From Pseudofrankia coriaricola (GTDB lineage: Bacteria; Actinomycetota; Actinomycetes; Frankiales; Frankiaceae), in the NCBI RefSeq assembly GCF_001854805.1, contig NZ_MBLO01000223.1, forward strand, positions 1-54,605: a stretch of DNA of 54,605 bases. The letters run 5' to 3'. This document shows positions 15,580 through 29,532 of the stretch, piece by piece (the stretch's first letter is position 1; each line of letters starts with the position of its first letter). A program made the position numbers and the translations under genes. Under the pieces are notes generated by a model that saw only the letters and a list, made by a program, of their open reading frames with translations, was not told where the DNA came from and did not search any database.

Positions 15580-16365
15580 TCAACGGCTCATCCGCCGTGG
15601 AACAGCGCGTTCGCCGGTGAGCCGGGAGGCGACAAGGTCAGCCGTCTCGGCGACGAGGCCGACGATCCTGTCCCGAGCGGCGTCTGTGACCTCCGCCATG
15701 GGGTAGGTAACGGCGACGGCGGCAGCCGGCCGCCCGTCGCGGGTGAGCACGGGTACCGCCACGGAAGCAAAACCGGGCGTAACCTCACCGTCCTCCTCCG
15801 CGTGACCGCGCCGGCGAACGTCAACGAGCACCCGCCGTAGAGCGGACAGAGTCCATGGCCCCACGTCGTGGCGCAGCACGAAGGCGTCCCGGTCGGGGAA
15901 CAGCGCCCGCACCTGGGCCGCCGGCAGGACCGCGAGCATGGCACGGCCGCTTGCGGTGAGGTGGGCGGGGAGCCGGACCCCGACATCGGTGATCAGCGGA
16001 GGGCGTCGCGGTGCCCGCTCTTCGATGACGTATACGACCTCCCGCCCGTGAAGCACCGCCAGGTGGGCCGTGTGCCCCGCCCGGTCGACGAGGTTGGCCA
16101 GAGGGACCCGGGCAAAGCGCTGAAGCGGAACCTGCCGCGAGTAGCCGCTTCCGAGCTCGTAGGCGCTCAGCCCCAGGCTGTATCGACGTTCATCAGGAAG
16201 GCGCACGACGAAGCCCTCGGCCATCAGCGTGGAGAGCAGATGGTAGGTGGTGGAGCGCGGGAGCTTCAGGTCCCGGCTGATCGTGGCGGCGGCCACCGGT
16301 TGGGGCTGACGGCTCAGGTGGCGCAGGATCGCGAGCACCTGCGCTGCGGCCGGAACGTTGCTCAC
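15580..16365 (-). CDS. IclR-family regulator, divergent from hutH
   Basis: A probable regulator of the hut operon. The winged helix is at the N-terminus (PAAAQVLAILRHLSR, ATISRDLKLPRSTTYHLLST, LMAEGFVVRL). It is followed by the IclR effector domain (about 80-250), including HTAHLAVLHGREVVYVIEER and FASVAVPVLTRDGRPAAAVA. I chose GTG 16365 (VSNVPAAAQ), which gives a normal 261-residue protein; a longer frame to 16524 would overlap hutH. The 76-nt gap to hutH contains a symmetric site (16385-16402). In actinobacteria and other groups Hut clusters are controlled by several regulator families, so the role is inferred from position. Confidence 0.9.
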   Translation of the reverse strand: MSNVPAAAQVLAILRHLSRQPQPVAAATISRDLKLPRSTTYHLLSTLMAEGFVVRLPDERRYSLGLSAYELGSGYSRQVPLQRFARVPLANLVDRAGHTAHLAVLHGREVVYVIEERAPRRPPLITDVGVRLPAHLTASGRAMLAVLPAAQVRALFPDRDAFVLRHDVGPWTLSALRRVLVDVRRRGHAEEDGEVTPGFASVAVPVLTRDGRPAAAVAVTYPMAEVTDAARDRIVGLVAETADLVASRLTGERAVPRRMSR

Positions 16366-16384
16366 CTTGCGCCCGGGCGTCGAC

Positions 16385-16402
16385 TGTCTGGGATCACAGA
16401 CA
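16385..16402. promoter_or_regulatory. 18-bp palindrome in the iclR-hutH intergenic region
   Basis: TGTCTGGGATCACAGACA matches its own reverse complement at 16 of 18 positions. It lies midway between the divergent IclR and hutH starts, the usual place for an autoregulated IclR operator. The assignment to this regulator is inferred. Confidence 0.6.
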
Positions 16403-16441
16403 CATTGTGCTCTCCGGGTATGGCGCCCGGAGGGCAGGAGC

Positions 16442-17995
16442 GTGTGGACTCGTGGTGTGGAGGACGTGACTATCGGTGTGGGGGGGCTGACCGAGGACGA
16501 CGTCGTGTCCGTGGCCCGCGGCAACGCCCGAGTCCGCCTCTCCCCCGAGGCGCTCGAGGCGATCGCTCAGGGCCGCGTGGTGATCGATGCCCTGGCCGCC
16601 GGCGCTGAACCCCACTACGGCGTTTCCACTGGCTTCGGCGCACTGGCCACCCGGCACATCCCGGTGGGATTGCGCGCCCAGCTGCAACGCAGCCTGGTCC
16701 GCTCGCACGCCGCCACCTCGGGACCCGAGGTCGAGCGGGAGGCCGTCCGGGCGATGATGCTGCTGCGGCTCTCCACCCTGGCCACGGGCCGGACCGGCGT
16801 CCGCCCGGCGGTGGCGCAGACCTACGCGGACCTCATCAACGCCAGCATCACGCCCATCGTCCGCGAGTACGGCTCTCTCGGCTGCTCCGGGGATCTCGCG
16901 CCGCTCGCGCACTGCGCTCTGGCGGCTACCGGCGAGGGCGAGGTCCGCGACGCCGACGGTGCGGCGGTTCCCGCCGCCGCCGCTCTCGCGGCGGCCGGGA
17001 TCGAGCCATTGGTGCTGCGGGAGAAGGAGGGCCTCGCCCTCATCAACGGCACCGACGGGATGCTCGGCATGCTGGCCCTGGCCTGCCACGACCTCGCCCT
17101 CCTGCTGCGCACCGCGGACATCTCCGCGGCGATGAGCATCGAGGCGCTTCTCGGGACCGATGCCGTGTTTGTCCCCGAGCTGCAGGCACTACGACCGCAT
17201 CCCGGCCAGGCTGAGAGCGCCAAGAACCTCCGCGCCCTGTTGTCCGGGTCGCCGATCATGGCCAGCCACCGGAGCCCGGACTGCGCCCAGGTGCAGGACG
17301 CCTACTCGCTTCGGTGCACCCCGCAGGTGCACGGCGCGGCCCGGGACACCGTGACCCACGCACGGCTCGTCGCCTCCCGCGAACTCGCCAGCGCCGTCGA
17401 CAACCCCGTACTCACGCTCGACGGCCGCCTGGAGAGCAACGGAAACTTCCACGGAGCGCCCGTGGCGTACGTCCTCGACTTCCTCGCCATCGTCACCGCC
17501 GACGTCGCGTCGATGTCCGAGCGCAGGACGGACCGCATGCTCGATGTGCATCGCAGCCAGGGCCTTCCGGCGTTCCTTGCCGACGATCCCGGCGTCGACT
17601 CCGGACTGATGCTCGCCCAGTACACCCAGGCCGGCATCGTCTCCGAGCTGAAGCGTCTGGCCGCGCCGGCATCGGTCGACTCGATCCCCTCGAGCGCCAT
17701 GCAGGAGGACCACGTCTCGATGGGGTGGTCGGCCGCGCGCAAGCTGCGCCGTTCGCTCGACGGCCTGACCCGGGTGGTCGCCATCGAGATCCTGACGGCG
17801 AGCCGGGCACTCGACCTGCGCGCCCCGCTGGCTCCCGCCGCCGGTACCCACGCTGTCCGGGACCTCGTGCGGACCGTCACCGGGGGACCCGGTCCGGACC
17901 GCTACCTCTCCCCCGAGATCGAGGCTGTCGGGGGCCTGGTGGCGTCCGGCAGCGCCCTGGGCGCGGCTGATGCCGCCTGCGGCCCTCTCACCTGA
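16442..17995 (+). CDS. hutH: Histidine ammonia-lyase
   Basis: Converts L-histidine to trans-urocanate and ammonia, the first Hut step. The catalytic Tyr lies in HYGVSTGFGAL (about 58-68). The MIO-forming loop is GSLGCSGDLAPLAH, so the cofactor would arise from Cys148-Ser149-Gly150 rather than Ala-Ser-Gly. Further family blocks are YSLRCTPQVHGAARD, NGNFHGAPVAY and SAMQEDHVSMGWSAARKL with the conserved Glu. GTG 16442 has GGAGGGCAGGAG immediately before it; the frame extends upstream to 16358 without family sequence. At 517 residues the length is normal. It starts the hutH-hutU-M20-hutF-hutI series, 36 nt before hutU. Confidence 0.95.
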   Translation: MWTRGVEDVTIGVGGLTEDDVVSVARGNARVRLSPEALEAIAQGRVVIDALAAGAEPHYGVSTGFGALATRHIPVGLRAQLQRSLVRSHAATSGPEVEREAVRAMMLLRLSTLATGRTGVRPAVAQTYADLINASITPIVREYGSLGCSGDLAPLAHCALAATGEGEVRDADGAAVPAAAALAAAGIEPLVLREKEGLALINGTDGMLGMLALACHDLALLLRTADISAAMSIEALLGTDAVFVPELQALRPHPGQAESAKNLRALLSGSPIMASHRSPDCAQVQDAYSLRCTPQVHGAARDTVTHARLVASRELASAVDNPVLTLDGRLESNGNFHGAPVAYVLDFLAIVTADVASMSERRTDRMLDVHRSQGLPAFLADDPGVDSGLMLAQYTQAGIVSELKRLAAPASVDSIPSSAMQEDHVSMGWSAARKLRRSLDGLTRVVAIEILTASRALDLRAPLAPAAGTHAVRDLVRTVTGGPGPDRYLSPEIEAVGGLVASGSALGAADAACGPLT

Positions 17996-18031: not shown

Positions 18032-19690
18032 ATGTCCGGCCCCCGCCCCGTACGGTCTCCTCGCGGGACTACATTGACCGCCCGGTCCTGGCAGACCGAG
18101 GCGCCGCTGCGGATGCTGCAGAACAACCTCGACCCCGAGGTCGCGGAGCGACCCGACGATCTCGTCGTCTACGGCGGCACCGGACGGGCCGCGCGAAGCT
18201 GGGACGCCTTCGACGCCATGATCCGGACGCTGACGACGCTGCGCGAGGATGAGACGATGCTCGTCCAGTCGGGCAAGCCGGTGGGCGTGCTGCGGACCCA
18301 CGAGTGGGCCCCTCGAGTGCTGATCGCCAACTCCAACCTCGTGGGCGACTGGTCCACCTGGCCGGAGTTCCGGCGGTTGGAAGCGCTGGGCCTCACCATG
18401 TACGGGCAGATGACCGCGGGATCCTGGATGTATATCGGGACCCAGGGCATCCTGCAGGGCACCTACGAGACGTTTGCCGCGGTGGCTGACAAGCGGTTCA
18501 ACGGGACCCTCACCGGGACGCTGACCCTCACCGGTGGCTGCGGCGGGATGGGTGGCGCGCAGCCGCTCGCCGTCACCCTCAACGGGGGCGTCTGCCTCAT
18601 CGTCGACGTCGACCACTCCCGGCTCCAGCGCCGGGTGGAGCACCGTTACCTCGACGAGGTCGCGCCGGATCTCGACACCGCCATCGCCACTGTCCTGCGG
18701 GCGAAAGCGGACCGCCGGGCGCTGTCCGTCGGGGTCACCGGCAACTGCGCCGAGGTCTTCCCGGAACTGCTGCGCCGCGGGCTCGCCGTCGACATTGTCA
18801 CCGACCAGACCAGCGCGCACGACCCACTCGCCTACCTCCCCGAGGGCGTCGCCGTCGAGGACTGGCACGACCTCGCCGAGCGCAAGCCCGAGGAGTTCAC
18901 CAACCGGGCCCGGGCAGCGATGGCCAAGCACGTGCAGGCGATGGTCGAGTTCCAGGACGCCGGCGCGGAGGTGTTCGACTACGGCAACTCGATCCGGGAG
19001 GAGGCCCGCCTCGGCGGGTACTCCCGGGCCTTCGAGTTCCCCGGCTTCGTGCCCGCCTACATCCGGCCGCTGTTCTGCGAGGGCAAGGGGCCGTTCCGCT
19101 GGGTTGCCCTGTCCGGCGACCCGGCCGACATCCACGCCACCGACGAGGCCGTCATGAAGCTCTTCCCCGACGACGACCGGCTCCAGCGGTGGATGCGTGG
19201 AGCGCGGGAACACATTGCCTTCCAAGGACTCCCGGCGCGCATCTGCTGGCTCGGCTACGGCGACCGCGATCGCGCCGGGGCGAGGTTCAACGAGATGGTG
19301 GCCTCCGGGGAGCTCACGGCCCCCATCGTCATCGGCCGGGACCACCTCGACACCGGCTCGGTCGCCTCCCCCTACCGCGAGACCGAATCGATGCTCGACG
19401 GCTCGGACGCCATCGCCGACTGGCCGCTCCTCAACGCGCTGGTGAACACCTCCTCGGGAGCCACCTGGGTCTCGATCCACCACGGCGGCGGGGTCGGCAT
19501 CGGCCGGTCCCTGCACGCCGGCCAGGTCACCGTGGCCGACGGCACGGAACTGGCCCGGCAGAAGCTCGAGCGGGTCCTGAGCAACGACCCGGCGACGGGC
19601 ATCCTCCGCCACGCCGATGCCGGTTACGGCAGAGCCGACGACGTCGCCCGCGCCACCGGGGTGCGGATGCCCATGCGGGAGGGCTCGTGA
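18032..19690 (+). CDS. hutU: Urocanate hydratase (urocanase)
   Basis: Adds water to urocanate to give 4-imidazolone-5-propionate using tightly bound NAD. Hallmarks are [15 protein letters not shown] (NAD site, about 170-184), [56 protein letters not shown], and near the C-terminus [17 protein letters not shown]. The 552-residue length is standard. The stop overlaps the next gene's GTG by 4 nt, so translation is coupled. If the locus also handles ergothioneine, this or a relative could hydrate thiourocanate, but the sequence alone looks like an ordinary urocanase. Confidence 0.96.
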
Positions 19691-20889
19691 CCTTCGAGGC
19701 CATGTGGGGCGACCTCTCGCCGGTCGGCCGCGCGGCGGCCACCGGCGGATACCGGAGGTTCGCCTGGACGTCCGAGGACAGCACGCTGCGGCACTGGTTC
19801 ACCGGAGAGGCGGCGGCCCGCGGTCTCGATGTCGTCACCGACCGCGCCGGCAACCTATGGGCCTGGTGGGGAAACCCCGACGCCGGAACCCCGGGGGTCG
19901 TGATCGGTTCTCATCTCGACTCGGTGCCCGACGGCGGCGCGTTCGACGGGCCGCTCGGCGTGGTATCCGCCTTCGCCGCCGTGGACCAACTGCGGGCCAG
20001 CGGCTTCCGACCAGCAGCCCCGGTGGGTATCGCCTGCTTCTCCGACGAGGAAGGTGCCCGGTTCGGCATCCCCTGCACCGGCTCGCGCCTCATCACCGGA
20101 GCCCTTCATGCCGACAGAGCCCGCGCGCTGCGCGACGGCGACGGCATCACGCTGGCAGAGGCGATGGCGCTTTCGGGCCACGACCCGCGGCAGGTCGGAC
20201 CGGACCCGGAAGCGCTGCGGCGCATCGGGATGTTCGTCGAGCTGCACGTCGAGCAGGGACGCGGCCTCGCCGATCTCGGCCGCCCGGTGGCGGTGGGCTC
20301 GTCGATCTGGCCGCATGGCCGGTGGCGCCTGGATCTGGAGGGTGAGGCCAACCACGCCGGCACCACCCGGCTCGCCGACCGCCGGGACCCGATGCTCGAC
20401 CTCGCGCACGTCGTCACGACCGCACGGACATCCGCCAGCATCGTCGGGTGCGTGGCCACCGTCGGGAAGGTGCAGGTGATCCCGAACGGGGTCAACGCGA
20501 TCCCGTCCCGGATCACCGCGTGGCTCGACGCCCGCGGCCCGCAGGAGGATCACGTCCGTTCCGTCGTCGGTGCCGTCGCCACGGCCGCGGGCTCCGATCC
20601 GGTCGAGGAGTCCTTCACCGCGGCGACGGATTTCGATGCCGTGCTCGTCGGCCGGCTGGCGAAGCTGCTCGGCGACGCCCCCGTACTCGGGACAGGCGCC
20701 GGTCACGACGCCGGGATCCTGGCCCGGGCGGGAATCCCCACGGCGATGCTCTTCGTGCGCAACCCCACCGGGGTCTCGCACTCCCCGGCCGAGCACGCGG
20801 AGACCGCCGACTGCCTCGCGGGGGTCGACGCCCTGGCTCAGGTCCTCGAAGACATAGCCGCTAGAGGGCCAAAGGGTGTGCGAAAATGA
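19687..20889 (+). CDS. M20-family amidohydrolase (allantoate amidohydrolase / N-carbamoyl amino acid hydrolase type)
   Basis: A two-metal hydrolase of the hydantoinase/carbamoylase group. Metal ligands are visible in [17 protein letters not shown] (His and Asp), [11 protein letters not shown] (Glu-Glu), FVELHVEQG (His) and VSHSPAEH (last His). The bridging domain has [16 protein letters not shown]. The 400-residue length fits. GTG 19687 overlaps the hutU stop (GTGA). It occupies the place of hutG: no classical N-formylglutamate deformylase is present. I infer that it releases glutamate from N-formylglutamate, or from N-carbamoyl-glutamate if the thio-pathway operates. Its last codons run into the repeat at 20864-20969, so the C-terminus may have been altered by that element. 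Confidence 0.9.
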
Positions 20890-20969
20890 TCTTTCTTCGC
20901 ACACCCGGCCGGGGTTCCTGCCGGATCGCGAAGCGATCTGGTAGGTCCGCATCATCCCCAGGATCACTG
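20864..20969. repeat. Left copy of a hairpin-bearing inverted repeat flanking hutF-hutI
   Basis: This segment recurs inverted at 23461-23657. The shared 60-odd nt block includes a perfect 11-bp stem, GGGTGTGCGAA (20874-20884) with its complement at 20896-20906, around AATGATCTTTC. The other copy reads GGGTATGCGAA with a matching change in the other arm. A second hairpin follows (20921-20929 with 20933-20941), and the shared end is CCCCAGGATCACTG (20956-20969), 11 nt before hutF. The stop codon of the M20 gene lies inside. It may be a small non-autonomous mobile repeat or a structured regulatory RNA. Confidence 0.8.
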
Positions 20970-20980
20970 AGGCGCGCGGG

Positions 20981-22294
20981 ATGAGGTGGTTCGCCGCCGA
21001 CGCCGTGCTGGCCACCGGCCCGGCGCGGAACGTCACTTTCGAGGCCGCTGACGGCCGGTTCACCAGCATTCGACCCGGCACCGAGCCGGGCGACGCCGTC
21101 CGACTGCCCGGCGTCGTGCTGCCCGGCTTCGCCAACGGCCACAGCCACGCCTTTCACCGCGCTCTGCGGGGGCGGACCCACGACGGCCCCGGCGACTTCT
21201 GGAGCTGGCGGCACGCGATGTACACCGTCGCCGGGCGCCTGGACCCGGACAGCTACCTGACCCTCGCCCGCGCGACCTACGCCGAGATGGCGCTGGCGGG
21301 AATCACGTCGGTCGGCGAGTTCCACTACCTGCATCACGCCTGCGGCGGCACCCCCTACGCCGACCCGAACGCGATGGCGGAGGCCCTGCGCCAGGCCGCC
21401 ACCGACGCCGGCATCCGGCTCACCCTCGTCGACACCTGCTACCTCGCGGGCGGTCTTGGAAGCGACGGCCACACGCCGCTTTCGGGACCGCAACTGCGGT
21501 TCGGTGACGGCACCGTCGACGCCTGGGCGGAGCGGGTCGACCTGCTCCGCCCGTCGGAGCGGATGCGGGTGGGGGTGGCGGCGCACTCGGTGCGGGCAGT
21601 ACCTCGGGAGGCGCTCCCCACCGTGGTCTCGCAGGCGCGGGGGCGGCCGCTGCACGTCCACCTGTCCGAGCAGCCCGCCGAGAACGAGGCCTGCGCCGGG
21701 TTCTACGGATGCACCCCGACCGCTCTGCTCGCGGAGGCCGGCGCGCTCGGGCACACCACCACGGCGGTCCACGCCACCCACCTGACCTCCGGCGACGTCG
21801 GCCTCCTGGGCCGCTCCGGGACCACGGTCTGCCTGTGCCCTGGTACCGAGCGCGACCTCGCCGACGGCATTGGGCCGGGCGGGGCGCTGCGCGACGCGGG
21901 TGCGCCGCTGAGTGTCGGCAGCGACCAGAACGCCTCCATCGACCTCTTCGGAGAGATCCGCGGGGTGGAGGAGCACGAGCGACTGACCTCGTTGCGGCGC
22001 GGCCGCTTCGGACATGACCAGCTCCTGGGCTTCCTCACCGACCACGCGGCGATCGGCTGGGATGCCGGCCGGCTCGAGGTGGGTGGCCGGGCCGATCTCG
22101 TGGCCGTGCGGCTCGACACGCCGCGTACCGCGGGGGTGGCGGCCGAGCGGGTCCTGATGGCCGCGACCGCCGCGGACGTCGACACCGTCGTGGTGGACGG
22201 CCGGACCGTGGTGACGGGCGGACAGCATGTCCTCGGCGACGTCGGCCGGCTACTCGGAGAGGCGATTTCAGCTGTGTGGGAGCAGGAACGATGA
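20981..22294 (+). CDS. hutF: Formimidoylglutamate deiminase
   Basis: Converts N-formimidoyl-L-glutamate to N-formyl-L-glutamate and ammonia in the five-step Hut route. It belongs to the amidohydrolase superfamily: [16 protein letters not shown] carries the HxH metal pair (about 47-62), [12 protein letters not shown] and VHATHLT carry later His ligands, and [15 protein letters not shown] carries the metal Asp. [11 protein letters not shown] is typical of HutF. The length of 437 aa is normal. ATG 20981 lies 11 nt after the flanking repeat and has only a weak ribosome site (TGAGG). The stop overlaps hutI (ATGA). Confidence 0.93.
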
Positions 22295-23466
22295 GCAGCA
22301 CCCTCGTCGGCGGAATCGGCGAGCTGGTCACCAACGACCCTTCGGTCGGTGACAGATCCACCCTTGGCATCCTGACGGACGCCGCCGTCGTGGTTTCGGA
22401 CGGCCGGGTCCGCTGGGTGGGTCGCGAGGCGGAGGCGCCGGCGGCGGACCGTCGCGTGGATCTCGGTGGGCGCGCGGTGATCCCCGGCTTCGTGGACTCC
22501 CATGCGCATCTCGTGTTCGCCGGCGACCGGTCCGCCGAGTTCGCCGCCCGGATGGCCGGAGCCCGCTACAGCGGCGGCGGCATAGCCACCACGGTGGCGG
22601 CCACCCGTAGGGCGACCGACGAGCAGTTGCGGACCTTGCTCGCCACGCGGATGACGGAGATGCACACGCAGGGAACCACGACGGTGGAGGTCAAGAGCGG
22701 TTACGGCCTCACCATCGCGGACGAGGTCCGGGCGCTGCGGCTGGCGCGGGAGGTCACCCCCGAGACCACGTTCCTGGGGGCGCACGTCGTGCCCCCAGGG
22801 ACCGATCGAGCGGACTACGTGAGGCTGGTGTGCGGGGAGATGCTCACCGCCTGCGCCCCCTACGCCCGGTGGATCGACGTCTTCTGCGAGCCGGCCAGCC
22901 CAACCGCGTTCGATGGCGACGAGGCACGCGCGATCCTGCTGGCGGGCCGGAGGACCGGACTCGGCCTCCGGGTCCACGGCAACCAGCTCTCAGCCGGGCC
23001 CGGGGTGCAACTGGCTGTCGAGCTGGGATGCGCGAGCGTCGACCATTGCACGCATCTGACCGACGCCGACGTCGACGCGCTGGCCGGCGGGTCCACAGTG
23101 GCGACGCTGCTGCCTGGCGTCGAGTTCTCCACCCGTTCCCCCTACCCCGACGCCCGGCGGCTGCTGGCAGCCGGCGTGACCGTGGCGCTGGCCACCGACT
23201 GCAACCCCGGCAGCTGCTACACGTCGTCGATGCCGCTGATGATCGCGCTGGCCGTCCGGGAGATGTCCATGACCCCGGCCGAGGCCCTGTCCGCGGCCAC
23301 AGTAGGTGGGGCACAAGCCCTGAGGCGCAACGATATCGGAGTCCTTGCTCCCGGCTACACGGCCGATCTTACGGTGCTGGACGCCCCCAGCTATCTGCAC
23401 CTGGCCTACCGCCCCGGCGTCCCTATCGCCCGCGCCCTCGCTCTTCCCGGTCGGTCCCACCAGTGA
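22291..23466 (+). CDS. hutI: Imidazolonepropionase
   Basis: Opens the ring of 4-imidazolone-5-propionate to N-formimidoyl-L-glutamate. Family marks are [19 protein letters not shown] (HxH metal site), [63 protein letters not shown] and [18 protein letters not shown]. The length is 391 aa. ATG 22291 overlaps the hutF stop by 4 nt and has GGAG about 10 nt upstream; an in-frame GTG at 22276 is less likely. The stop codon lies inside the first bases of the right-hand flanking repeat. Its product feeds hutF encoded just upstream. Confidence 0.95.
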
Positions 23467-23657
23467 TCCTGGGGACAACCGGACCTACCAGCAGACCTCC
23501 CAGATCACGACCTCCCAGATCGCTGACCTCCCAGATCGACTGCGTCGATCCGGCGGGGACCCTGTCGCCGATCTGGCAGGGACCCCGTTCGGCGATCCGG
23601 CAGGAACCCCGGCCGGGTATGCGAAGAAAGATCATTTTCGCATACCCTTTGGCCCTA
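23461..23657. repeat. Right copy of the inverted repeat, expanded by short tandem repeats
   Basis: Reverse-complement counterpart of 20864-20969. It has the same hairpin (GGGTATGCGAA at 23615-23625 with its complement at 23637-23647) and the same end block (23461-23474, spanning the hutI stop). Between them are extra units: GACCTCCCAGATC three times (23494, 23509, 23525) and CGATCYGGCRGGRACCC three times (23546, 23569, 23593; Y = C/T, R = A/G). It separates the convergent hutI and hutH-like genes and could act as a two-way terminator. Confidence 0.8.
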
Positions 23658-25076
23658 TAGGAAGCTGAGGAGCCGTTCGGCCATCTCGAGGTCGACGGTG
23701 AGATCGCGGTCCTCGGCGCCGCGGGGGAGGTCCGCCACCGCCGACCATGCGGCGTGCAGTCCCGTCGGCAGCGCGGCCTCGGCGGCAGCCGACCGGGCCT
23801 GGAGCCGGAGGCACCGGACCGCCGCGACCAGCTCTCCCGCAAGCACAGTGCGCAGCCGGATCGCTGTCTGGGCAGCCTGGGAGGCAGCCAGGGAGGCGAA
23901 GCTCGCGTCCTCCTCCACCCCGCGGGACAGTGTGACCGACTGCAGGCTGGCCGGGCTGGCGAGGGCCCGCATCTCCGCCAGCGCCGAGGCGACCACGTAC
24001 TCCGCAATCATGATCCCCGACGCCGCCGGGGTGCCCTCGCCGAGGAACGGCGCGAGGCCGGTGTAGGCCGGCTCGGCCAGCATGGTGAGCCGGGTGAGCG
24101 AGAGGTGCGCCGACTGGGACGCCGCCAGGACGACAGCGTCCAGTGCTTGACCGAGGTAGGAGGCGTGGAAGCCGCCGTGGTGGGCGATGCCATGGGCGGC
24201 CGAGACGATCGGGTTCTCCGAGCCGGTGTTCACCATCCGTGTCACCACGTCCGAGAGCGTGGCAAGGCTGTCAAGGAAGACGCCGTGCACCTGGGGCAGG
24301 CTGCGCAAACCGAACGGGTCCTGGATCCGCGCCCCAGCCGGGGTGCCGGCAACGAGCTCACGCATGCGGACACAGACATGCCGCGCGCCAGGGAAAGGCG
24401 TGGCCACCTCTACCGCGGGAGCGAACGCCTCGATGTTCCCGGTCACGCCGACGAAGGTCAGTGCCGCGACGACGTGAGCCGCCTCGGCCAGCGCAAGCAG
24501 GTCGGCACACGCGAGCGCGGCATCGGCGAGAGTGGCCGCGCTACTGGACAGGAACGGGACGGCGTCCCCGCTGCCGACGACGACCGGGCGGCGGATCGGA
24601 TTTGTCGTCATTACCTGCCCGCTGATGGCCAGGGCGGTGACGGCGAGCGCCGAGAGATCACCCGTACCAATGCTTCCCAGCTCTCGTACCGGTGGAAGCG
24701 CATCCAGCTGGAGCAGGTCGGCCAGGGCATCGAGGAGATCCGGTGACGCACCGTTGCCGTCCGCGGCCAACTGGTTCAACCGCACGACCAGCATCGCCCG
24801 GACCCGCTCGGCGGAGCGCAGCGAACCGCCCGACGTGGCGTGGCTGAGGATCAGACTCCGGGCCCCGGCCTCGGGGTCCGAGACCGTTTGGACGCGGTTG
24901 GCTCCGACCCCGGTCGTACGCCCGTAGATCGGCCTCTCGGACGAGGCGGCGTTCGCAAACGCCTGGGATCGCCGAACACGTTCGCGCGCTTCCTCTCCCA
25001 CGCGCACCGGCGTGAGCCGCCGCGCGACCGCGACGATGTCGTCGATCCGGAGACTGCTGCCGTCAATCTCGATCAT
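23655..25076 (-). CDS. Histidine ammonia-lyase-fold protein lacking the MIO triad; candidate ergothionase / histidine-betaine trimethylamine-lyase
   Basis: Overall an aromatic ammonia-lyase superfamily member: Tyr51 in IYGRTTGVGANR matches the catalytic Tyr of HAL, FGLRSLPQVHG and ENPIVSAAHG match substrate-site blocks, and SRGVEEDASFASLAASQAA keeps the conserved Glu region. But the loop reads GSIGTGDLSALA: it is one residue shorter than GSVGASGDLAPLA and has Gly137-Thr138-Gly139 in place of Ala-Ser-Gly, so normal MIO formation is not expected. Ergothionase, known from Treponema and Burkholderia, is a HAL-fold enzyme that expels trimethylamine. The divergent quaternary-amine transporter and nearby Hut genes make such a role attractive. 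ATG 25076 follows AGGAG by 8 nt. Confidence 0.85.
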   Translation of the reverse strand: MIEIDGSSLRIDDIVAVARRLTPVRVGEEARERVRRSQAFANAASSERPIYGRTTGVGANRVQTVSDPEAGARSLILSHATSGGSLRSAERVRAMLVVRLNQLAADGNGASPDLLDALADLLQLDALPPVRELGSIGTGDLSALAVTALAISGQVMTTNPIRRPVVVGSGDAVPFLSSSAATLADAALACADLLALAEAAHVVAALTFVGVTGNIEAFAPAVEVATPFPGARHVCVRMRELVAGTPAGARIQDPFGLRSLPQVHGVFLDSLATLSDVVTRMVNTGSENPIVSAAHGIAHHGGFHASYLGQALDAVVLAASQSAHLSLTRLTMLAEPAYTGLAPFLGEGTPAASGIMIAEYVVASALAEMRALASPASLQSVTLSRGVEEDASFASLAASQAAQTAIRLRTVLAGELVAAVRCLRLQARSAAAEAALPTGLHAAWSAVADLPRGAEDRDLTVDLEMAERLLSFL

Positions 25077-25102
25077 GGCGTTGCTCCTGAGCCGCCGCGG
25101 CG

Positions 25103-25116
25103 ACAGATCGTTCTGT
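25103..25116. promoter_or_regulatory. Palindrome in the leader of the HAL-like gene
   Basis: ACAGA-TCGT-TCTGT is a perfect 5+5 inverted repeat 27 nt upstream of the HAL-like start. TTCGCGAA follows at 25121-25128. Either may be an operator in this divergent promoter region (25077-25246). Confidence 0.4.
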
Positions 25117-25194
25117 TTCATTCGCGAAAACTGTCTGGCGACCCTCTTGGACCCAGAGGCCCTACATGGCATCTTATCGTCCAATGGCAGGCTA

Positions 25195-25211
25195 CTTCCA
25201 CCAGATGGAAG
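25195..25211. promoter_or_regulatory. CTTCCA-n5-TGGAAG palindrome, candidate IclR operator
   Basis: A perfect 6+6 inverted repeat lying 36 nt upstream of the IclR gene at 25247 and facing the divergent HAL-like gene. The half-site TGGAA/TTCCA is like that in the Escherichia coli IclR operator. Binding by the adjacent IclR protein is inferred. Confidence 0.5.
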
Positions 25212-25246
25212 CAGCCAGGGCTTCGGACGGGAGGGCGTGAGGCTGC

Positions 25247-25969
25247 ATGCCACTCGACGCCGAGGAGGAGTTCGCCATCGCCACCGGCAGCACTTCGACT
25301 CGCACGGTGGATCGCGCCTTGCTCCTGCTCTCCGAGGTGTGCGAACAGGAGTCACTCTCCTTGTCCGAGTGCGCCCGACGGGCCCACCTACCGGCCAGCA
25401 CGGCACTGCGGCTCCTGCGCACGCTCGAACGTGCCGGGTTCGTGTCGCGCAACGGCGAGGGAAGTTTCGGAGCCGGCCCGCGACTGATCCAACTGGGTGC
25501 GACCGCCATCGGGCGCAACACCTTGGTGAGGATCGCCACGCCTGCGCTGCACCGCATCGTGGCCGCCACGGGCGAGTCGGCCTACCTTTCGATGCGCGCG
25601 GCCCGCGACAGCGCCATCTACGTCGCGATGGTGGAGGGCACCCACTCTGTGCGGCACACGAGCTGGATCGGCCGAACGGTGCCGATGGCCGGGCTCGCGG
25701 TGGGGCGCGCTCTGATGGACGACGTCCCGCCGTCGGGCTACGTCGCCGAGCGCGACCGCCTCGAGCCCGACGTGACCGCCATCGCGGCACCCGTCCGGCA
25801 TCCGGGAGGGGTCGCAGGGGCCTTCAGCGTCCTCGGCCCGAGCTACCGCATCGACGACAACACGATGCACGACTACGGGCGAATCGTTGCCCAGGAAGCG
25901 CGGCTACTGAGTGCCCAGCTCGGAACGCCCAATCCCCCACCGACGGCGGAACAGGACACAGGGACATGA
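25247..25969 (+). CDS. IclR-family regulator of the quaternary-amine transporter operon
   Basis: Probable regulator of the adjacent transporter and HAL-like lyase. The winged helix is near residues 15-75 (TVDRALLLLSEVCEQ, LSECARRAHLPASTALRLLR, TLERAGFVSR). The effector domain follows (ATPALHRIVAATGESAYLSM, GRTVPMAGLAVGRAL, and a C-terminal VAGAFSVLGPSYRI). At 240 residues it is slightly short. It is the first gene of the operon and overlaps the ATPase start by 4 nt (ATGA), so regulator and transporter are co-translated. The divergent position to the lyase suggests that one ligand induces both import and breakdown. Confidence 0.9.
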   Translation: MPLDAEEEFAIATGSTSTRTVDRALLLLSEVCEQESLSLSECARRAHLPASTALRLLRTLERAGFVSRNGEGSFGAGPRLIQLGATAIGRNTLVRIATPALHRIVAATGESAYLSMRAARDSAIYVAMVEGTHSVRHTSWIGRTVPMAGLAVGRALMDDVPPSGYVAERDRLEPDVTAIAAPVRHPGGVAGAFSVLGPSYRIDDNTMHDYGRIVAQEARLLSAQLGTPNPPPTAEQDTGT

Positions 25970-27066
25970 TCAGATTTGACACAGTGTCGAAGCACTACCC
26001 CGATGGAACCGTCGCCGTCGACGAGCTGAACCTGGTAGCGCCGTCTGGGCAGATCACAGTGCTCGTCGGACCGTCCGGCTGCGGGAAGACCACCAGCCTG
26101 CGAATGATCAACCGGATGATCGAGCCGACCTCCGGCTCGATCTGGATAGACGATGTCGACACGGCTGGTATGGCCACCCACGAGCTGCGCCGCCGGATCG
26201 GCTACGTCATCCAGCACGCCGGGCTCTTTCCGCATCGCACGATCGTCGACAACGTCGCCGCTGTCCCGTTGCTGCTCGGGCACAACAAGAAGCAGGCGCG
26301 AACCCGTGCTGTCGAGCTCCTCGAACGGGTAGGGCTACCGGCCCACTTCGCCAAGCGGTACCCCGCGCAGCTGTCGGGCGGCCAGCAGCAACGTGTCGGG
26401 GTGGCCCGAGCCCTCGCCGCCGATCCACCGGTGATGCTCATGGACGAGCCGTTCTCCGCGGTCGACCCCGTCGTGCGCGAGCAGTTGCAGGACGAGTTCC
26501 TCCGACTGCAGGGAGACCTCGGCAAGACCATCGTGTTCGTCACCCACGACATCGACGAAGCGATCAAACTGGGCGACCAGGTCGCGGTGCTGAGGGTCGG
26601 CGGGCGGCTCGCGCAGCTCGCTCCCCCGCAAGAGCTGTTGAGTCGACCCGTCGATGCCTTTGTGGCGGGATTCGTGGGGCGGGACCGCGGCTATCGCGCG
26701 CTCGCCTTTACCAGCGCCGGAACGCTCTCTACCCACGCCGAGCAGACCGTCGCGCTGGGCGGCCCCGTGCCCTCGGGCTCCGACGACGGCACCTGGATCC
26801 TCGTGGTCGACGCCGCGGGCACGCCGCACGGCTGGCTGAATCTCGAACACCTGCGCGCCGGCGAAGAGACGGTGACCGAGGAGATGCTCTACCGCGGAGG
26901 CACCCTCGCCACCCAGGGAGGAACCCTGCGGGCGGCGCTCGACGCCTGCCTCTCGTCGCCGTCCGGGCGCGGCGTCGTCGTCGACGCCAGTGGTTGCCTG
27001 ATCGGCTCCGTCACGGCACGCGAAGTCCTCGATCTCATTGAGGCCCGGACGGCGATGGCATCGTGA
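25966..27066 (+). CDS. Quaternary-amine (OpuC/ProV-type) ABC transporter ATPase
   Basis: Energises import of a betaine-like solute. It has Walker A GPSGCGKTTS (about 36-45), Q-loop YVIQHAGLFPHRTI, signature LSGGQQQRVGVARAL, Walker B VMLMDEPFSAVDP and the H-loop VTHDIDEAI. This combination is typical of the OpuAA/OpuCA/ProV group. The C-terminal part (about 270-360) has the two-repeat pattern of CBS domains (ILVVDAAGTPHGWLNLEHL, VVVDASGCLIGSVTAREVL), which sense ionic strength or nucleotides in relatives. ATG 25966 overlaps the IclR stop; its own stop overlaps the next permease start. Confidence 0.93.
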   Translation: MIRFDTVSKHYPDGTVAVDELNLVAPSGQITVLVGPSGCGKTTSLRMINRMIEPTSGSIWIDDVDTAGMATHELRRRIGYVIQHAGLFPHRTIVDNVAAVPLLLGHNKKQARTRAVELLERVGLPAHFAKRYPAQLSGGQQQRVGVARALAADPPVMLMDEPFSAVDPVVREQLQDEFLRLQGDLGKTIVFVTHDIDEAIKLGDQVAVLRVGGRLAQLAPPQELLSRPVDAFVAGFVGRDRGYRALAFTSAGTLSTHAEQTVALGGPVPSGSDDGTWILVVDAAGTPHGWLNLEHLRAGEETVTEEMLYRGGTLATQGGTLRAALDACLSSPSGRGVVVDASGCLIGSVTAREVLDLIEARTAMAS

Positions 27067-27761
27067 TCTCCGCGGCCGGCACAAGCTCCAGCTCTTCCCC
27101 GCTGCACTTCATCGGGTATTTTATGGACCATCGCCACGAGGACCTCGGGTGGCTGTGGTCGCACACGTGGCTCTCGGTGCTCCCGGTGGTGATCGGGCTC
27201 GCGATCGCGCTCCCTCTCGGCTGGCTCGCGCGACGCCACCGGTTCGTCTACCCACCGCTGATCTCGATCACCGGTCTTCTCTACACGATCCCTTCGATCG
27301 CGTTGTTTGTCATGATCCCGCCGATTCTCGGCTTGAGTTCACTCGACCCGATCCAGGTGCCGATCGCTCTCACCGTCTACTCGGTGGCCCTGCTGGTGCG
27401 GGTCGTGGCCGACGGGCTCGCCTCGGTGCCCGAGGAGACGCTGCAGGCCGCCAGCGCCATCGGATACAAGGATCTGGGTCGCTTCTTCAAGGTGGAGCTC
27501 CCCATCGCCGTACCCGTCATCACGGCGGGCGTGCGGGTGGCTCTGGTGGCCAACGTCAGCATCGTCGCCGTCGCCGGGACGATCGGAATGTCAAACCTCG
27601 GGCAGCTGTTCACGACCGGTTTCCAGCTCTCGACCCCCACGCCGTACTACCCGCCGATCGTTCTCGGGATCGTGCTGTGTGTTCTGCTCGCCCTCGTGCT
27701 CGACGGCCTGGTCCTGCTGCTGAACCGGATACTCGTCCCGTGGCGGAGGGTTGCCCGATGA
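27063..27761 (+). CDS. Quaternary-amine ABC transporter permease 1 (OpuCB/ProW-type)
   Basis: An inner-membrane channel subunit with about five or six hydrophobic segments (for example LSVLPVVIGLAIALPLGWLA, ISITGLLYTIPSIALFVMIP). The ATPase-docking EAA-like loop is EETLQAASAIGYKDLGRFFK, followed by VELPIAVPVITAGVRVALVA. GTG 27063 overlaps the ATPase stop (GTGA), and an ATG at 27123 is an alternative. It should pair with the second permease encoded immediately after (ATGA overlap). Relatives carry glycine betaine, choline or, in the EgtUV system, ergothioneine. Confidence 0.92.
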   Translation: MISAAGTSSSSSPLHFIGYFMDHRHEDLGWLWSHTWLSVLPVVIGLAIALPLGWLARRHRFVYPPLISITGLLYTIPSIALFVMIPPILGLSSLDPIQVPIALTVYSVALLVRVVADGLASVPEETLQAASAIGYKDLGRFFKVELPIAVPVITAGVRVALVANVSIVAVAGTIGMSNLGQLFTTGFQLSTPTPYYPPIVLGIVLCVLLALVLDGLVLLLNRILVPWRRVAR

Positions 27762-28528
27762 TCATCACAAGGGTCTTCAACTGGCTCACCGACGGCGACA
27801 ACTGGAAAGACAGCCATCTGAACACCGGCATTCTCACCCAGCTCGAGGCGCATATCCGGTTCACGGGGATCGCTCTCGCCGTCGCCATCCTGATCGCGCT
27901 TCCCCTGGGCATGCTCATCGGCCACACCGGACGCGGCACCTGGTTGGTCTCGGCGGCCAACGCGGTCCGTGCCCTTCCCACGGTGGGCGTGCTGGTGCTG
28001 CTGACCGTGATCATCGCTCCACACTTCCACGGCCGTACGGACACCGGGTACCTGATCCCCACCGAGATCGTCCTGGTTCTGCTCGCCGTTCCACCCATCC
28101 TGGCGAACACCTACGCCGGGATCGACAACGTCTCCCCGGCGGTGCGCGACGCCGCGGCCGGCATGGGCATGACCGGTCCACAGGTTCTCTTCCAGGTCGA
28201 GCTGCCGTGCAGCCTCCCTCTCATCTTCTCCGGACTCCGGTCGGCAACCCTCCAGGTGATCGCGACCGCGACCATCGCCTCCTACGTTCCTCTCGGCGGT
28301 CTCGGGCGATTCATCTACGACGGCCTCGCGCAGCAGGACTATCCGCAGATGATCGGCGGAGGCGTGCTGGTGGCCGCTCTCGCGCTGACCACGGATCTCA
28401 TTTTCGCGACAATCCAACGCTACGCGGTCTCGCGAGGAATCACCGGACGGTTCCCCCGCGGGAGGCCGGCCGTGGCCTCGGAAGTCCAGTCGGCCGTCCT
28501 GACAGGGCCGGAAGTATCCCACGCCTGA
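27758..28528 (+). CDS. Quaternary-amine ABC transporter permease 2 (OpuCD-type)
   Basis: The second channel subunit. Membrane segments include IRFTGIALAVAILIALPLGM and ANAVRALPTVGVLVLLTVII. The EAA-like loop is NVSPAVRDAAAGMGMTGPQV, followed by LFQVELPCSLPLIFSGLRSA and ATIASYVPLGGLGRFIYDGL. The length (256 aa) is normal. ATG 27758 overlaps the previous stop by 4 nt. With the ATPase and first permease it makes a two-permease OpuC-type core complex. The binding protein gene follows 56 nt later. Confidence 0.92.
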   Translation: MIITRVFNWLTDGDNWKDSHLNTGILTQLEAHIRFTGIALAVAILIALPLGMLIGHTGRGTWLVSAANAVRALPTVGVLVLLTVIIAPHFHGRTDTGYLIPTEIVLVLLAVPPILANTYAGIDNVSPAVRDAAAGMGMTGPQVLFQVELPCSLPLIFSGLRSATLQVIATATIASYVPLGGLGRFIYDGLAQQDYPQMIGGGVLVAALALTTDLIFATIQRYAVSRGITGRFPRGRPAVASEVQSAVLTGPEVSHA

Positions 28529-28584
28529 TCTCTTCCGGAACCACATCCGAATGAGTCGTACCTCGACGCAACCAGGGAGAAAAG

Positions 28585-29532
28585 ATGAAGCGGAAATTCC
28601 TTAGATCAGTCACGGCCGTCGCCGCCGTCGCCGCGGTCGCCGCCGTCGGCCTGGCGGCCTGCGGGTCGAGCGACTCGCCCACCGCGAGCGGCAAGAGCGT
28701 CGCGAGCGGGTTGATCCTCGGCGGTCCGCCGGAGTTCAAGACGCGGGCCGACGGCGTGCCCGGCCTGGAGAAGAACTACGGCGTCACCTTTGGTAAGTTC
28801 ACCGTTACCGACACCGGTGGCCCGGTCACCGTGACGGCTCTGAAGAACGGGCAGATCGACGCGGCCGACCTGTTCACCACTGACCCCTCGATCGCGGCCA
28901 ACGACTTCGTGATTCTCACCGACCCGAAGAGCAACTTCGCGGCCCAGAACATCGTGCCGGTAATCAACAAGGCCAAGGCGACGGACGGCGTCAAGACGAC
29001 TCTCAACGCCATCCAGGCCAAGCTCACGACGTCCGGGCTCTCGGCGCTGCTCACCAAGGTGCAGACGGACAAGCAGGACCCGGATGCGGTGGCCAGGCAG
29101 TGGCTGTCCGACAACGGTCTTGCCGCCACCGGCACCGCGGCCTCGGGCGTCAGCCTGACCATCGGTTCCGCCAACTTCCCGGAGAACGTGATCCTCGCCG
29201 AGATCTACGCGGAGGCGCTCAAGGCGCAGGGCGCCTCAGTCAAGACCACGCTGAACATAGGCAGCCGGGAGAAGTACTACGCGGCGCTCAAGGACGGCTC
29301 GCTCGACCTGTTCGCCGAGTACACCGGCACGCTCCTGCAGTTCATCGACGCGTCCGCCACGGCCACCAGCTCCGCCGACGTGTACGCCGCGCTGGCAAAA
29401 GCCCTGCCCGCCAACCTGATCGAGCTCGACCAGGCGACCGCCCAGGACAGCGACGCCATCGTCGTCACCAAGGCGACGGCGGACAAGTACCACCTCGTCT
29501 CCATCGCCGACCTGGCCAAACTGGCCAGCTGA
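28585..29532 (+). CDS. Quaternary-amine binding lipoprotein with circularly permuted lobes
   Basis: Extracellular receptor for the transporter. A signal peptide ends in GLAAC with Cys26 lipidated. OpuCC/OsmF-type receptors normally start with the lobe bearing TIGSxNFxE and GSREVxYxALKxGxID, and end with the lobe bearing GGPPEFxTRxDGxPGLxKxYG. Here the order is reversed: residues 42-179 are the usual second lobe (GGPPEFKTRADGVPGLEKNY ... VARQWLSDNG) and 189-315 the usual first lobe (LTIGSANFPENVILAEIYAE, GSREKYYAALKDGSLDLFAE, YTGTLLQF). The C-terminal LVSIADLAKLAS would join naturally to GLILGGPPE at residue 42, as expected for a circular permutation. The ligand could be ergothioneine, hercynine or another betaine. 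Confidence 0.9.
   Translation: MKRKFLRSVTAVAAVAAVAAVGLAACGSSDSPTASGKSVASGLILGGPPEFKTRADGVPGLEKNYGVTFGKFTVTDTGGPVTVTALKNGQIDAADLFTTDPSIAANDFVILTDPKSNFAAQNIVPVINKAKATDGVKTTLNAIQAKLTTSGLSALLTKVQTDKQDPDAVARQWLSDNGLAATGTAASGVSLTIGSANFPENVILAEIYAEALKAQGASVKTTLNIGSREKYYAALKDGSLDLFAEYTGTLLQFIDASATATSSADVYAALAKALPANLIELDQATAQDSDAIVVTKATADKYHLVSIADLAKLAS

Follow-up and report, generated by a model that had tools for sequence, protein, structure and literature searches.

A histidine ammonia-lyase-fold enzyme lacking the MIO triad, linked to histidine utilization genes in Actinomycetota: a predicted hercynine trimethylamine-lyase

What reaction might be catalyzed by a protein that has the fold of histidine ammonia-lyase (HAL), lacks the residues of the 4-methylideneimidazole-5-one (MIO) prosthetic group, and is encoded next to a histidine utilization (Hut) operon with a HutH of its own? 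This question is raised by a stretch of 54,605 nucleotides (hereafter the window) on contig C223 of the 11.2 Mb genome of Pseudofrankia coriaricola, whose kin are actinomycetes, in which such a lyase gene converges with hutI on one side and diverges on the other from an operon for an IclR-family regulator and an ABC importer. The best single reading, a tentative one that may well be right, is that the enzyme would convert hercynine (histidine betaine) to urocanate and trimethylamine. We infer that the substrate is a histidine quaternised at N-alpha, most likely hercynine (N-alpha-trimethylhistidine), from which the lyase takes the amine; since trimethylamine leaves easily, MIO would not be needed. 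The urocanate would then enter the ordinary Hut route (HutU, HutI, HutF and M20) to glutamate, and the importer would presumably supply the substrate, under putative control of the IclR regulator.

The lyase reached 242.4 bits against TIGR01225 (hutH), below the HutH cut-off of 539.15, and in the alignment it lacks the Ala/Cys-Ser-Gly triad for MIO: the segment reads GSIG-TGDL in the lyase, against GSLGCSGDL in the window's HutH, the lyase being one residue short. This deletion was present in all 102 rows of the lyase family (which include at least two genomes twice, L029/L059 and L030/L063, and to which the residue counts below refer) and in all six ergothionase-like rows, which consist of the Treponema denticola protein, the sole characterised ergothionase, and five plasmid-borne relatives 35-40% identical to it. 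When the lyase was used as a query in its own genome, two matches were obtained, the lyase itself and HutH. It shares with HutH the fold, the Tyr, His, Arg and Glu of the site and the occurrence in Hut operons, but differs in lacking the MIO triad and in its low HutH score. The first-pass annotation had described a MIO-less HAL-fold gene of 473 residues, divergent from genes for an IclR regulator, an ATPase, two permeases and a lipoprotein and next to hutH-hutU-M20-hutF-hutI; both the lack of the triad and the layout were confirmed, with every named gene present and the lyase gene convergent with the hut operon.

Kinship with ergothionase, which had also been proposed from the sequence, was borne out by several comparisons. 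Among solved structures, the top phmmer match was a Thermoplasma HAL (E 1.4e-42), followed by ergothionase (E 9.9e-33), and Foldseek, run with an AlphaFold model of the lyase (mean predicted local distance difference test score, pLDDT, of 88), placed ergothionase 6s7j first (E 9.4e-25, query TM-score 0.88), before aminomutases and HALs. Relatives of the lyase at E ≤ 1e-60 were detected in two of 35 genomes of the order and 25 of 393 genomes of the class, the own genome being counted in both, and two peptide patterns of the family, run over a collection of named genomes, yielded at least 595 stretches, at least 574 of which were relatives by tblastn. The family is therefore a large actinobacterial group, and it forms a separate clade beside the ergothionases. 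In an unrooted tree of 52 rows, each of three groups, the family with 35 rows, the ergothionase-like proteins with six and HutH with ten, stood alone on one side of a branch with full or almost full support, and the family and the ergothionase-like rows each made up one side of a branch with 100/100 support, which puts the family outside the ergothionase clade. A second unrooted tree of 39 rows, with eight extra paralogues, contained a branch (99/95) that parts the MIO-less groups from HutH and the MIO-containing paralogues; its MIO-less side comprised the family, the ergothionase-like rows, L055 and L174/L175, while the long-branch MIO-less L176 sat with the MIO side. Approximately unbiased (AU) tests gave p 0.144 for the family plus ergothionase-like rows without SinoB11, and rejected (p 0.026) a MIO-less set with L176 and without L174/L175; as L174/L175 are also MIO-less, this latter set was badly drawn, and reliance is placed on the 99/95 branch and not on the AU test. 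The simple reading would be that MIO was lost once, before the family and ergothionase parted; the family itself does not lie within the ergothionases. The motifs of the other MIO-less HAL-fold kinds are GSIGA-GDL (L055), GSVGS-SDL (L174/L175) and GSLGT-GDL (L176), and the L055 gene (8001-9455) adjoins LLM oxidoreductases, an ornithine-cyclodeaminase-like gene and an SsuA-type binding protein. The ergothionase-like lyases of a Polaromonas plasmid (L048) and a Paracoccus plasmid (L050) lie near a YeiH-family gene or a putative sulfate exporter, neighbours that could fit an ergothioneine-sulfonate route.

The active site keeps a common core and departs from ergothionase around it. Tyr51, His79, Thr138, Ser177, Gln252, Arg258, Glu287, Asn288 and His299 were found in all 102 rows, and Glu388 in 101. 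Tyr51, His79, Arg258 and Glu388 are also present in HutH, as residues of the site. Val57, Asp171 and Ser177 are common to the family and all six ergothionase-like rows, whereas HutH has Phe, Glu and Asn. Conversely, four positions invariant in the ergothionase-like rows are mostly replaced in the family, Lys63 by Arg (94 of the 102 rows), Leu55 by Arg (97), Gly408 by Arg (90) and Asn416 by Phe (101), and a further difference is Leu277, which has become Phe or Tyr (100). Four residues are reportedly named as catalytic in the publication on the structure of ergothionase. The alignment with characterised relatives that the first-pass annotation had called for gave a divided answer, in that the lyase goes with the ergothionases against the MIO lyases (99/95) and shares with the T. 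denticola enzyme (6s7j/6s7q) the fold, the missing triad residue and the Val, Asp and Ser changes, but belongs to a clade of its own with other active-site residues. The family motifs were kept in the Actinomycetospora-related lyases L180-L184 and L187-L189 (the matched piece of L184 begins past the Tyr motif), and therefore no sign of a substrate switch was seen in those genomes.

Gene neighbourhoods tie the family to uptake and to urocanate breakdown. Of 20 lyase loci from a class-wide search of genomes, 15 had an OpuC-type transporter adjacent to the lyase and nine had hutU within the stretch, frequencies which argue that the linkage of lyase, transporter and hutU is not due to chance. Counts were then extended to 80 named loci, the best 80 of the at least 574 relatives: 36 had the transporter (not counting L114, which has only the binding-protein gene, at a contig edge), 18 hutU and eight hutH, and 13 of the 18 hutU-bearing loci had no hutH in the stretch. 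When the 54 loci with at least 9.5 kb on each side of the lyase were recounted apart, the transporter was present in 23, hutU in 15, hutH in seven and neither transporter nor hut gene in 27. The hutU-bearing loci belong to Kineosporiaceae, Thermomonosporaceae, Streptosporangiaceae, Pseudonocardiaceae, Micrococcaceae and Streptomycetaceae, and their arrangements are unlike. In the window, the hut operon adjoins the lyase gene at the 3' end of the latter; in Kineosporia and Actinomadura, it lies past the binding-protein gene; Arthrobacter sp. StoSoilB13 (L051) and Paenarthrobacter (L113) have iclR-opuA-perm-perm-sbp-hutU-lyase on one strand; Sphaerisporangium (L109) has hutU, M20, hutF and hutI divergent from the lyase; and ten genomes related to Actinomycetospora termitidis have the order hutU-M20-hutF-hutI-lyase, with hutU about 4 kb from the lyase. 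The suggested tie to Hut enzymes is thus supported by repeated linkage in six families.

The presence of HutH was surveyed in A. termitidis and 16 lyase-bearing relatives, using the HutH (E ≤ 1e-20) and HutU (E ≤ 1e-40) of the window as queries. In six of the ten genomes with the order given above (G394, G413, G420, G408, G410 and G411), the sole match to the HutH query was the lyase, a result to be read with the fact that all six are multi-contig (the contig of G410 measures 8.6 kb) and that any of them could hold an undetected HutH; the remaining four (G405, G414, G409 and G418) also have a true HutH.

As the lyase would produce thiourocanate from ergothioneine and urocanate from hercynine, the nature of a HutU encoded beside it serves as the key test. 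Thiourocanate hydratase was called by NF058530 (cut-off 930 bits), urocanase by TIGR01228 (cut-off 375 bits). All five scored HutUs linked to the family were canonical, namely that of the window and those of L051 (875 bits for TIGR01228 and 626 for NF058530), L034 (903/652), L031 (924/652) and L032 (928/663). By comparison, the hutU-like gene adjoining the Burkholderia ergothionase relative L049 encodes a thiourocanate hydratase (1050 bits). No protein above the hydratase cut-off was found in the own genome, and thiourocanate hydratase was the best match in none of the 80 lyase loci. This context points to urocanate, and away from thiourocanate, as the likely product of the lyase, and the idea that hercynine would feed straight into HutU, one of two branches left open at first, becomes the preferred one through the repeated linkage of the lyase to canonical hutU, at a confidence just short of even. 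The ergothioneine branch is disfavoured by the hydratase results, the five canonical HutUs and the Arg at the ergothionase-invariant Lys.

The importer had been likened to EgtU, and it shares with EgtU/EgtUC the OpuC/ProX architecture and the Glu375 and Arg379 positions; K242, G244, F293, Y341 and Y443, however, are not kept. For this comparison, EgtUC numbering followed PMC9732360, with the offset checked on N339, Y341, E375, R379, Y419 and Y443, and residues were mapped on relatives of normal domain order (L122 and A4) and carried to the window protein via its match to L065. K242 is replaced by Ala or Thr and the invariant G244, depending on gap placement, by Phe or Asn; in EgtU itself, G244F is described in excerpts of PMC9732360 as costing about 100-fold in affinity. 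An EgtU identity was therefore rejected, and with the ergothioneine-site residues absent, import of a trimethylated histidine is a prediction from gene linkage. Eleven relatives of canonical order have invariant Arg82, Glu83, Asp144, Glu176 and Arg180 (numbered as in A4 row 1), Asp144 occupying the position of EgtU Tyr341. The binding lipoprotein of the window is, moreover, circularly permuted, its signal peptide being fused to the usual C-terminal half; its swapped halves are 54% and 59% identical to those of the normal-order L065 protein. From the order of two motifs, six binding proteins were permuted (window, L057, L059, L060, L063 and L068), 24 normal and 13 not callable, and contiguous matches to the permuted protein suggest that L028, L058, L061 and L062 are permuted too. 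The lyases of those loci that are present in the lyase tree all lie near that of the window. A structure prediction of the permuted protein was poor (mean pLDDT 53, six rows) and was not used, and one literature search found no report of a circular permutation in glycine-betaine binding proteins. As to the origin of hercynine, EgtD was over its cut-off at two places in the own genome (C4:12452-13354 and C259:253949-254977) and was present in nine of ten further genomes, being absent in Paenarthrobacter; hercynine could accordingly be home-made in most genomes and would have to come from outside in at least one.

Several observations weigh against hercynine as the substrate. Neither transporter nor any hut gene was present in the fetched DNA of 38 of the 80 loci. 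One genome, G406, keeps a lyase with 94% identity to the A. termitidis enzyme but has neither HutU nor HutH, the hut genes having gone from between the lyase and its neighbour, which counts against a strict need for HutU. HutH was also found in 10 of 11 genomes of one set and in 10 of the 17 of the A. termitidis set, and the linkage to hutU could partly reflect this co-presence. The aromatic cage, which has four residues in EgtU, has changed to Tyr (F293), Asp (Y341), Phe (Y419) and Gln (Y443), leaving two of four positions aromatic, and the Mycobacterium tuberculosis protein MtProX, described in excerpts of PMC5894108 as having no aromatic cage, was found to bind polyphenols but none of betaine, choline and carnitine. 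The window protein resembles such ProX/YehZ-type proteins in being ProX-like without a full betaine cage, a likeness to MtProX drawn from its description in that source, and differs in being lyase-linked and permuted. The HutU test has its own weak side: thiourocanate hydratase occurs at only one of the five ergothionase-like control loci (L049), at the Paracoccus locus L050 a canonical HutU (943/676) is encoded alongside that locus's HutH, and neither hydratase nor HutU was seen in the 17-20 kb fetched for L048, L052 and L056. With a hydratase at just one such locus in five, not finding it beside the lyase means little; more weight falls on the observed association with canonical hutU and on the absence from the whole own genome of any protein above the hydratase cut-off.

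These points bear differently on the alternatives. Urocanate might be formed from another histidine derivative (N-alpha-methyl or dimethyl histidine, a histidine conjugate or imidazole-lactate) taken up by a ProX-like importer for non-betaine ligands, which would fit the canonical hutU linkage equally well and would suit a binding protein that lacks half of the aromatic cage and has the five invariant positions in its relatives. This is rather unlikely, because no reaction other than trimethylamine elimination is known to have been characterised for MIO-less HAL-fold enzymes (PMC13405746, in excerpt), and other leaving groups depart less easily. A true ergothionase, forming thiourocanate and trimethylamine from ergothioneine brought in by an EgtU-like importer, is a more doubtful proposal still. 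The MIO loss and fold shared with the T. denticola enzyme speak for it, as do the EgtD genes of the own genome, which suggest a capacity for the ergothioneine precursor, and the three of five control loci that likewise lack a nearby hydratase or HutU; it is opposed by the want of a hydratase over the cut-off in the own genome or as best match at any of the 80 loci, by the replacement of Lys63, Asn416, Gly408 and Leu55 mostly by Arg, Phe, Arg and Arg, and by the missing EgtU determinants. The family thus differs from ergothionase in its clade (100/100), these residues, its canonical linked HutUs (those scored) and its ProX-like importer.

The possibility that the family comprises MIO-independent histidine ammonia-lyases, perhaps using Thr138 in the Gly-Thr-Gly triad, which replaced HutH in some genomes, would explain lyases in Hut operons without hutH, the six of ten such genomes in which HutH was not found, and the complete conservation of Thr138. 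It appears improbable: from general chemistry, ammonia would leave poorly in the absence of MIO; Ala or Ser occupies position 139 in 13 of the 102 rows, which would disfavour cyclisation; the S143T variant of HAL is reported to be inactive; and HutH also occurs in the window and in most genomes of the set of 11. Equally improbable is a lyase that has lost its activity or acts on a non-imidazole substrate, with the hut linkage partly an inherited neighbourhood; the loci without hut or transporter genes and the lyase of G406 without hutU favour this, but the catalytic-site residues are nearly invariant and hutU linkage recurs in several unlike arrangements and families. On the most far-reaching view, the family would provide Actinomycetota with another entry to the Hut pathway that needs no MIO, the sole entry detected in at least six genomes; in the boldest form of this view, it would yield urocanate from free histidine either without MIO or with a prosthetic group derived from the invariant Thr138, and this we regard as very improbable.

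The features of the window are listed in Table 1. The palindrome between the lyase and iclR2 is conserved with one change in the congener L028. An operator common to both IclR intergenic regions was considered and rejected, as only a 9-base word is common to them. A dispersed palindromic repeat is present at 20861-20929 (-) and 23580-23664 (+) of the window, with at least 44 matches in the own genome (40 of 361 candidates scored). Other neighbours were examined at 41 loci (37 with neither transporter nor hut gene, and four more): a major facilitator superfamily transporter adjoins the lyase in eight, as it also does in L099, and RpiR-type regulators recur near it. Lentzea copies of the lyase lie beside an SNF2-type helicase gene and several Amycolatopsis-type copies near pyruvate kinase, which are unrelated genes. 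In two Actinomycetospora-type genomes, an operon similar to that of the N-methylglutamate route (with genes for a type III glutamine synthetase, a glutamate-synthase-like protein and an FAD oxidoreductase) is convergent with the lyase (L179, 1214-7243; L110/L189, 942-6955 in L189). It could use released methylamines; the set was absent from the other loci examined, and the cases are too few to use as evidence.

Table 1. Positions of the lyase, the importer operon and the Hut operon in the window
Feature	Position	Strand	Details
IclR regulator iclR1, divergent from hutH	15580..16524	-	true start probably internal to the open reading frame
HutH, MIO-containing histidine ammonia-lyase	16454..17995	+	627 bits vs 539; motif CSG; start approximate
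HutU, canonical urocanase	18032..19690	+	TIGR01228 895 bits vs 375; NF058530 654 vs 930
M20 amidohydrolase (NF006770), presumed N-formylglutamate step	19687..20889	+	profile match
HutF, formimidoylglutamate deiminase	20981..22294	+	profile match
HutI, imidazolonepropionase	22276..23466	+	Pfam amidohydrolase fold; name from operon position
MIO-less HAL-fold lyase, predicted hercynine (histidine-betaine) trimethylamine-lyase	23655..25076	-	473 amino acids; PF00221 300.9 bits
Codons of residues 134-140 (GSIGTGD), one-residue deletion site in MIO triad	24657..24677	-	coordinates computed from start 25076
Palindrome CTTCCA-CCAGA-TGGAAG (CTTCCACCAGATGGAAG), lyase/iclR2 intergenic, candidate IclR operator	25195..25211	.	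sequence
IclR-family regulator iclR2	25247..25969	+	profile match
OpuC/ProV-type ABC ATPase	25966..27066	+	TIGR01186 297 bits, below cut-off 326.6
ABC permease 1	27063..27761	+	PF00528
ABC permease 2	27758..28528	+	PF00528
Substrate-binding lipoprotein, OpuAC family, circularly permuted	28585..29532	+	residues 40-180 = C-terminal half of solved relatives, 188-314 = N-terminal half

Published work hints at where such an enzyme might find its substrate. Hercynine is the precursor of the antioxidant ergothioneine and, according to excerpts of PMC7653990, its main metabolite after human intake. Histidine betaine leaks from a soil-crust cyanobacterium and is depleted in intact crust by organisms not identified there, and it was taken up by none of the tested isolates, including an Arthrobacter and a Modestobacter (PMC4595634, in excerpt). 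A link between the lyase and this consumption of histidine betaine is suggestive, and the family is a candidate answer to the question of who consumes it. No hercynine lyase was found in the literature by title or abstract opening among open-licence PMC papers, a search that left subscription journals mostly uncovered, and members of the family are likely annotated as histidine ammonia-lyase. If the hercynine reading is true, the family would be a bacterial source of trimethylamine and an example of an enzyme that gained a new substrate by losing its prosthetic group. It would also account for Hut operons that lack hutH, and bacteria would have two routes into the classic pathway of histidine breakdown.

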